From Nitrospirota bacterium (GTDB lineage: Bacteria > Nitrospirota > Thermodesulfovibrionia > Thermodesulfovibrionales > UBA6898), in NCBI GenBank assembly GCA_012026685.1, contig VEOY01000160.1, forward strand, positions 1 to 44,870: a stretch of 44,870 nt of DNA, read 5' to 3'. A program made the translations under genes and the position numbers. This document shows, piece after piece, positions 36,185 through 38,347 of the stretch (position 1 is the stretch's first letter; every line of letters begins with the position of its first letter). A model generated the notes under the pieces. The model did no database searches. It had not been told where the DNA came from and saw only the letters and a program-made list of their open reading frames with translations.

Positions 36185-36967
36185 ATGCCGAAAAAACATC
36201 TTGGACAGAACTTTCTCTATGATCCGTCGATACTCAGCAGGATAATCTCTGCGGCCGATCTTTCATCAGAGGATACCGTCGTCGAAATAGGGCCCGGCCC
36301 CGGCCGGATGACACGACTGCTTGCTGAACGTGCAAAACACCTTATAGCCATCGAACTGGACCACGGTCTTTATGAGAGGCTGAAGGGTGATTTCATCGCA
36401 TACAGGAACGTCAAGATCGTTCAGGGCGATATTCTTCAGTTCCCGTTCGGTACTCTCGACACATTTAAGGTCGTAGCCAACATCCCCTACTATATAACCA
36501 CGCCTATCATCTTCAGGCTCCTCGAATACAAGAAGAACCTTCTCAGCATGACCCTAACCATACAGAAAGAAGTGGCCGAAAGAATCGTCGCTGTGCCCGG
36601 CGGCAAGGATTACGGAGTGCTTTCGATCAGCACGCAGTACCATACAAATCCGGAGCTTAAGTTCATCATACCCAAAGAAGCCTTTAAACCTTCGCCTAAG
36701 GTGGATTCAGCCGTGATCCATATGACCATCCGCCAGACCCCTCCGGTATCTGTATTGGATGAGAAGCTCTTTTTCAGCGTCGTGCGCACGGCTTTCTCGC
36801 AACGAAGAAAGACCCTGTCAAACTCGCTCAGTTCCTTTGGAAAGGACATTAAGGACATATTGAGTGAAGTCGGGGTCGATCCCCGGCGCCGGCCGGAAAC
36901 TCTCAGCATCGGGGAGTTCGCATTTGTGGCAAACGTTTTGAGAAATAAAACGGCTGCGCCCGAATAA
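36185..36967 (+). CDS. rsmA: 16S rRNA dimethyladenosine transferase
   Basis: 260 residues. SAM-binding motif VVEIGPGPGRMTRLL near residue 31, AIELDHGLYERL near 57 and the catalytic NIPYYITTPI (NxPY) near 99. It dimethylates two adenines in the 3' end loop of 16S rRNA. The final codons and the stop lie inside the stem-loop terminator that also serves the facing cytochrome gene. Confidence 0.96.
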   Translation: MPKKHLGQNFLYDPSILSRIISAADLSSEDTVVEIGPGPGRMTRLLAERAKHLIAIELDHGLYERLKGDFIAYRNVKIVQGDILQFPFGTLDTFKVVANIPYYITTPIIFRLLEYKKNLLSMTLTIQKEVAERIVAVPGGKDYGVLSISTQYHTNPELKFIIPKEAFKPSPKVDSAVIHMTIRQTPPVSVLDEKLFFSVVRTAFSQRRKTLSNSLSSFGKDIKDILSEVGVDPRRRPETLSIGEFAFVANVLRNKTAAPE

Positions 36968-36983
36968 ACTGGCGCAGCCGTTT
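36948..36983. terminator. Bidirectional terminator overlapping the rsmA stop
   Basis: AAACGGCTGCGCC pairs perfectly over 13 bp with GGCGCAGCCGTTT around a 10-base loop that contains the rsmA stop codon. On the minus strand the stem runs into TTTTATTT, giving a good terminator for the cytochrome gene; the plus-strand T-run is shorter. Confidence 0.8.
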
Positions 36984-37003: not shown

Positions 37004-38218
37004 TTACTTGTCGAGAGATACGGTCTTCTTTATTGAATGGATCGGGTACTTGTTGTCAGGGTTGACAGCTTCATAAAACAGATCAACCGTAACATCTGCA
37101 GACCTCACTCCGTCAGGGAGTTCGAACTCTATCGTCTCCTTTTTGGGCTGGTGAGGCTGTATGGCTGTATCCCTGATGTTCGCCACCTTCCACTGCGCAC
37201 CGTACTTCATCTTGGTGTCCCGGCAGTTCGTGGCCTGTGGATGATAATGTCTTTCCTGCTTGTTTTCAACAACCTTCCCATCCTTGTCCTTATAGCTTGC
37301 GGTCACTACCATGACCACTCTGTTATGAGACGGTCAACCGTCAGGTATTCTGTGACCTGCCGAAGAGACGATCTTCGTGTTGACTACAACCTTGGGGACA
37401 TAGGTGGCTGCTTTTCTCAGCCATTCGTACCCGAGGGTCTCGACATCAAGCGTAAGGGCCTTGGCAAGCAGTTCCGAGGTCTGCTTGTCGTCATTGAAGT
37501 TCGGGGCGATCAGGTGGTCGCCCTTCTGCATGTGGCAATCCTGGCAGGACTTCGTTCCGCCGCCGGAAACATAGTTATGGAGATAGCTGCCGTACAGATT
37601 TGCGCACTGGAATGCCTGGTCAAACTCAAGGTTTGGGCCAAGACCGTGGCACTGGCCACAGAAGACGGAATCCTTCATGATCGCACTCTTTTTGATCTTT
37701 CCGCCTGCGTGCGAAGCTACATCCTTGTTGCCATAAATTACACCCTTTTCAGGCGCACCGAGCTCCCTCTTGTGAATGAGGGCCTTCTCATTATGACAGA
37801 CCATGCAGGTGATCTGGAGCTTTCCGACTTTTGCAGAATCCTTTGCAAGAAGAGCTTCAGCCAGCTCTGCTGCCACCGAGTCCTCAGCAGAGGTCACAGC
37901 TTGAGGAAGGTGACATTTGAAACACGGGAAATTCGAGATCTTCATCTTTTTGGGATCGTCTTCCGAAAAAGCCGTGGCGCCTTTTTCACCCTTCTTCAGT
38001 GCCAAGGGGGTCAGCATCAGGCCGCCTTTTACTCCCATCAGAGGCCGTGCGTGATGGGACTTCTCCCACTGGGCATAGATCTCGGCATGGCAGGATTTAC
38101 ACTGGCTTGAGTCGTACATCTTGGCAAGCTCATCGATGGTCTTTGCCTTTTCAGCCCCGACAGTGGATAAGGGCATAATGACAAAGGCCGTTATCAACAA
38201 CAGCAGAATAATGCGCAT
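37004..38218 (-). CDS. Exported pentahaem cytochrome c with in-frame TGA (probable selenocysteine)
   Basis: 404 residues if the TGA at 37334-37336 is read through as residue 295. Signal peptide at the N-terminus (MRIILLLLITAFVIMPLSTVGA). Five CxxCH haem motifs start at Cys40, 99, 138, 187 and 225, followed by a strand-rich C-terminal domain. The sequence before the TGA, AGHRIPDG, and after it, PSHNRVVMVVTASY, read as one continuous domain in the same frame with no frameshift. The downstream part has normal coding character and ends at a proper stop before a terminator. A hairpin 22 bases after the TGA matches the bacterial SECIS pattern, and the codon is followed by C (UGAC), as in fdhF. Nonsense mutation or sequence error is the alternative. 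The protein probably acts in periplasmic electron transfer; its partner is unknown. Confidence 0.75.
37299..37318 (-). other. Candidate bacterial SECIS element
   Basis: On the minus strand GTGGTCA pairs with TGACCGC (seven pairs, one G-U) around the six-base loop TGGTAG. The loop begins 22 bases after the TGA, and a G is among the first two loop bases. This fits the published bacterial SECIS pattern (loop 16-37 bases after UGA, G near the loop start, short upper stem). Confidence 0.6.
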
Positions 38219-38318: not shown

Positions 38319-38347
38319 GTTATATCGATAGATGAGCGGCATGTCAA
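38319..38347 (-). promoter_or_regulatory. Promoter of the cytochrome gene
   Basis: On the minus strand a perfect TTGACA is followed, after exactly 17 bases, by TATAAC (5 of 6). The expected transcript start is near 38312, giving a leader of about 94 bases. Confidence 0.7.

Follow-up and report, generated by a model that had tools for sequence, protein, structure and literature searches.

The ExtKL family of selenoproteins was first predicted in 2007 from the Geobacter sulfurreducens genes GSU2937 and GSU2936, at which time its authors knew of no homologue devoid of selenocysteine (Sec) and found no SECIS element (PMC1914089); the family is also included in a 2026 review (PMC13188914). In Geobacter the genes lie in the extHIJKLMNOPQS cluster, a trait of the Geobacter representatives that forms no part of the NCBIfam definition of ExtKL. 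An extI mutant of this cluster is impaired in selenite and tellurite reduction, and the authors of that study cited preliminary data that link ExtKL to the reduction of selenite (PMC5877670); the reduction of Fe(III) and Mn(IV) has also been tied to extHIJKL (PMC6148476). In work on cable bacteria, ExtKL is described as a pentahaem cytochrome that is encoded by two genes and bears an Ig-like domain; the cable-bacteria sPHC/lPHC proteins and cytochrome c552 of Thermochromatium tepidum (PDB 5ze8) have a related five-haem fold that likewise ends in an Ig-like domain (PMC11976967). The structural database also holds a multihaem cytochrome c selenoprotein, MccSep (9wt8, 9wta and 9wtb, with the U325A mutants 9wt9 and 9wtc); searching the literature for MccSep by name returned nothing relevant.

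We examined a related gene in a 44,870-nucleotide stretch of DNA from a Nitrospirota bacterium (hereafter the window). On the minus strand, positions 38218 to 37004 form a single 404-codon frame that is interrupted once, by a TGA at codon 295 (37336-37334), and ends at a TAA (37006-37004). The frame length, the place of the TGA and the number of codons after it had been given exactly in a preliminary description of the DNA, as had the C that follows the TGA (TGAC). The gene (37004..38218) has a strong Shine-Dalgarno sequence (AAAGGAGGAGTTATG), and its product starts with a signal peptide, carries five CXXCH haem sites (residues 40-44, 99-103, 138-142, 187-191 and 225-229 of 404) and ends in a C-terminal Ig-like beta domain. 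The promoter that was said to be intact can be read by eye as a promoter-like TTGACA-N17-TATAAC (38319..38347, minus strand); it is absent from the listing of the consensus scan, which requires a T in the last position. Downstream, also read by eye, lies the expected intrinsic terminator (about 36943..36980, minus strand), a perfect 10-bp stem (CGGCTGCGCC/GGCGCAGCCG) around a 10-nt loop, followed by a T tract (TTTTATTT). The loop exceeds the limit of our hairpin scanner. The end of the plus-strand ksgA gene (36185-36967) falls inside this stem-loop.

The preliminary description left it undecided whether the family was already known. The protein matches NCBIfam NF040886 (ExtKL) over profile positions 23-422 of 423 with 439.8 bits, where the cutoff is 250, and shows the traits of that family: five CXXCH motifs, the motif GHxIPDGU and, at the PDG-U site, Sec or Cys, here TGA codon 295. 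Residues 22-365 also match MccSep (9wt8, E=9e-68). In 9wt8 the position aligned with 295 is a non-standard residue, printed X, and in the mutant 9wt9 it is Ala; U325 of MccSep thus aligns with Sec295. The family is consequently one already described, under the names NF040886, ExtKL and MccSep.

We compared the site across homologues. A scan of public bacterial genomes gave 23 loci, comprising 19 close relatives with a readable site, one close relative broken before the site and three distant cytochromes. The aligned codon is TGA in all 19 readable relatives, and in most of them PSHNR comes next. Among 396 genomes of Nitrospirota searched, 252 contain a match at E<=1e-20 and 113 a match above the ExtKL cutoff; most of the genes above this cutoff have exactly one TGA. 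When 20 genes without the TGA were fetched, 18 had Cys at the site and two distant ones His. The full alignment of 89 proteins, that of the window among them, shows TGA at the site in 50, Cys in 18 and His in 21, with no other residue, and the tree of these proteins requires at least three changes among the three states. All 68 ExtKL-type proteins therein have either TGA (50) or Cys (18) at the position. Two of the Cys forms (L078 and L079) belong to the same family as the window gene, and their genomes keep selA, which argues that Cys is a functional replacement and does not merely reflect loss of the Sec machinery. That the Cys forms arose through loss of the machinery was indeed ruled out: of the 16 genomes in which a Cys form was verified, 15 still have selA (the exception is G244). 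Judged from sequence comparison, codon 295 almost certainly encodes Sec, and the gene very probably specifies an ExtKL-type selenoprotein.

Bacterial SECIS elements lie 16-37 nt from the UGA and carry a G in the apical loop. A hairpin with these features was found at 37299..37318 (minus strand), 16-35 nt after the TGA, with a 6-bp core stem (GTGGTC/GACCGC) and the apical sequence ATGGTAGT. Counted with the adjoining pair it reads GTGGTCA-TGGTAG-TGACCGC; the loop, which contains UGG, then begins 22 nt after the TGA (21-23 nt, depending on the pairs counted). The UGG-rich apical part and the loop distance fit the bacterial SECIS model (PMC13188914). The hairpin had been proposed from this one sequence; its presence and spacing were borne out, whereas the single sequence by itself does not rise above chance. 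Synonymous-codon shuffling of the window sequence gave an equally long stem in 1200 of 5000 cases (24%), and we dropped the lone hairpin as proof on this ground; in the minimum-energy fold, the 50 nt from the TGA onward also pair differently. A scan for bulge-free hairpins missed most family members, which have a C-U mismatch or a bulge at position 22/29, a problem overcome by counting pairs in a fixed register. Counted in this way, five or six of the six pairs (16-21 with 30-35 nt after the TGA) are kept in 50 of 51 TGA genes, and the same pairs are eroded to a mean of 3.5 in 20 genes without the TGA. For 17 distinct sequences, 92% of the cells contain a pair, and sliding the 3' side by one to three positions lowers this share to 18-61%. 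Three pairs show two-sided, compensatory changes, and the covariation score was reached by no shuffle. The SECIS hairpin is thus shown comparatively, by the alignment of relatives and not by the single sequence. In one TGA member (L050) the stem, at 15-35 nt after the TGA, is shifted in register by one, lacks the bulge and is altered in sequence on both sides.

The Sec machinery that the preliminary description had proposed to look for is complete, with selA, selB, selC and selD all present in the genome. SelA and SelB are encoded near each other on one contig, and the tRNA-Sec scores 70.9 bits and has the anticodon TCA. The SelD gene (G000:C88:19799-20722) has a TGA of its own, at the U of the catalytic CxxU (SSCAGUAAK), and from this sequence SelD is itself a selenoprotein. 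Insertion of another amino acid at the UGA, such as Trp or Cys, or simple leaky readthrough could draw on the readthrough-prone TGAC context; given the full Sec system, the conserved hairpin and the fact that the residue exchanged is Cys, we consider it very improbable.

The other way to read the TGA is as a true stop, separating adjacent extK and extL genes in one frame or marking a decayed gene. A two-gene structure appears in some of the Geobacter and cable-bacteria literature (PMC11976967), and a conserved operon could not be excluded by the authors of the 2007 prediction (PMC1914089). Against this, 18 relatives read through the site with Cys, so that homologues do not all end there, and the hairpin downstream is conserved. 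The 14 close relatives aligned have no further stop after the TGA. Measured against the window gene, pN/pS lies at 0.10-0.28 upstream of the TGA and at 0.14-0.37 downstream, close to each other, values by which the downstream codons are under purifying selection. In the AlphaFold model the C-terminal domain is a beta sandwich whose high-confidence strands (273-285, then 300-310 and onward) flank residue 295; the two sides of the TGA had been taken for one domain, and this agrees. Since strands lie on either side of the Sec, termination at the UGA would be expected to halve the Ig-like domain. A true stop is accordingly given hardly any weight, the Cys homologues having refuted it already, whether as an extK/extL pair or as decay; pseudogene decay, which had been thought less likely because of the promoter, is ruled out by these homologues together with the selection after the TGA. 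The original proposal of a Sec-containing pentahaem cytochrome c is thus upheld by the TGA/Cys exchange, the SECIS hairpin, the Sec machinery, the NCBIfam match and a selenoprotein homologue in the PDB. In outline, the hairpin immediately after the UGA would guide SelB in delivering Sec-tRNA to this codon, yielding the full 404-residue periplasmic protein with its five-haem domain and, at the C terminus, its Ig-like beta domain.

What might Sec295 do? It lies six residues after His289, probably in a loop adjoining the haem domain; the AlphaFold model of the haem domain is poor (mean pLDDT 58, residues 293-297 below 50). His289, in the motif AGHRIPDGU (codon 37352..37354, minus strand), and His235 are invariant in both the Sec/Cys and the His groups and are probably haem ligands, His289 being a candidate distal ligand kept in distant relatives too. 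In more distant relatives, residue 295 is Val (Blastocatellia) or Ala (5ze8) while the equivalent of His289 stays, which suggests that 295 is a function-specific rather than a structural position. A second conserved residue is Cys205 (codon 37604..37606, minus strand), which lies between haem motifs 4 and 5 and is present in 67 of 67 Sec/Cys members; it seems to be present too in the remaining distant Cys member, L094. None of the 21 Nitrospira-type relatives with His295 has it, the residue there being Leu, Ala, Ser or another. The presence of Cys205 with Sec/Cys295 and its absence with His295 favour a redox or metal pair of Sec295 and Cys205 beside a haem.

That Sec295 is a redox centre or a ligand, as first proposed, would fit the interchange of Sec, Cys and His at the site. 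We tentatively prefer a model in which Sec295 and Cys205 work as a pair in a low-potential reductase site, either in catalysis or by binding a metal, with electrons supplied by the haems, and judge it to be a little under an even chance. Caution is due on two counts: few independent events underlie the association of the two residues, and in 5ze8 a Cys occurs in the region corresponding to Cys205, yet without Sec, which counts against the pair. The likeliest substrates would be oxidised chalcogen species; by analogy selenite or tellurite may be reduced, a suggestion that we hold with clearly less confidence, and the transfer of function from Geobacter is uncertain because the gene lies outside an ext cluster here. 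Alternatively, Sec295 could be an axial ligand of haem iron that tunes electron transfer and takes no part in a substrate site. Sec, Cys and His, the only residues at 295 in the 89 proteins, are all able to ligate haem iron; His289 is nonetheless the better candidate, as it persists where 295 is Val or Ala, and the occurrence of Cys205 with Sec/Cys but not with His speaks for a pair, so that we regard axial ligation as unlikely. In the sulfite reductase MccA, two Cys bind Cu(I) next to a haem. Sec295 and Cys205 are both conserved soft ligands, and the protein is a multihaem cytochrome, so that by analogy they could coordinate a second metal, for instance Cu(I), in this way, an idea that we find less probable still; MccA was not among the PDB matches at E<=0.01. 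More broadly, and with reserve, residue 295 may be exchangeable among Sec, Cys and His and, together with Cys205, may set the role of this widespread pentahaem fold: a selenenylsulfide or heterometal reductase centre where Sec/Cys295 is joined by Cys205, and an electron carrier or other enzyme in the Nitrospira-type relatives, which have His295 and no Cys205. If this is true, it would be an uncommon case of Sec acting directly at a c-type multihaem centre.

The genome holds a second ExtKL gene on another contig (G000:C204:8755-9900), 34% identical and also with an in-frame TGA, which groups with the Cys forms in the tree, though on a long branch. It has an eligible hairpin and lies beside an L,D-transpeptidase-like gene; the neighbours also include a hybrid histidine kinase. 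The gene in the window stands alone, with ksgA and pdxA converging on it and a GNAT gene upstream. A ksgA homologue was found within the fetched stretch of 13 of 70 related loci, many stretches having only 1-1.5 kb of flank, and ksgA is close to extKL at several other loci of Nitrospirota; the ksgA-extKL order is thus partly conserved, with no obvious functional link.

These results supply the two elements reported missing in 2007, Cys homologues and a conserved SECIS, and add a distant clade with His at 295 as well as the association with Cys205. Together, Cys205 and the Sec/Cys/His exchange offer direct handles on mechanism. With 113 of 396 genomes, ExtKL selenoproteins are widespread in Nitrospirota, beyond Geobacter and its relatives. 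Set beside the known systems, the gene differs from Geobacter ExtKL in standing alone, convergent with ksgA and among pdxA, ksgA and a GNAT gene, outside extHIJKLMNOPQS. MccSep is a homologue but a different protein, the best aligned stretch ending at residue 365; a fold search with the AlphaFold model matched only the Ig-like domain, to ApaG-like folds, and did not return MccSep. The c552 of T. tepidum shares the fold and has Ala at the aligned position, and so has neither Sec, Cys nor His there. The Nitrospira-type pentahaem cytochromes (L092, L093, L098 and L100-L117) have five CXXCH motifs and are related by profile, their 'LVPHxLP..H' motif aligning with GHxIPDGU; they differ in having His at 295 and no Cys205, and score 74-113 bits, under the ExtKL cutoff. 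Two of them were scanned against NCBIfam, and no better-fitting family was found. Measured against all of these, the window gene is a well-supported added member of the known ExtKL/MccSep family and not a new kind of protein.
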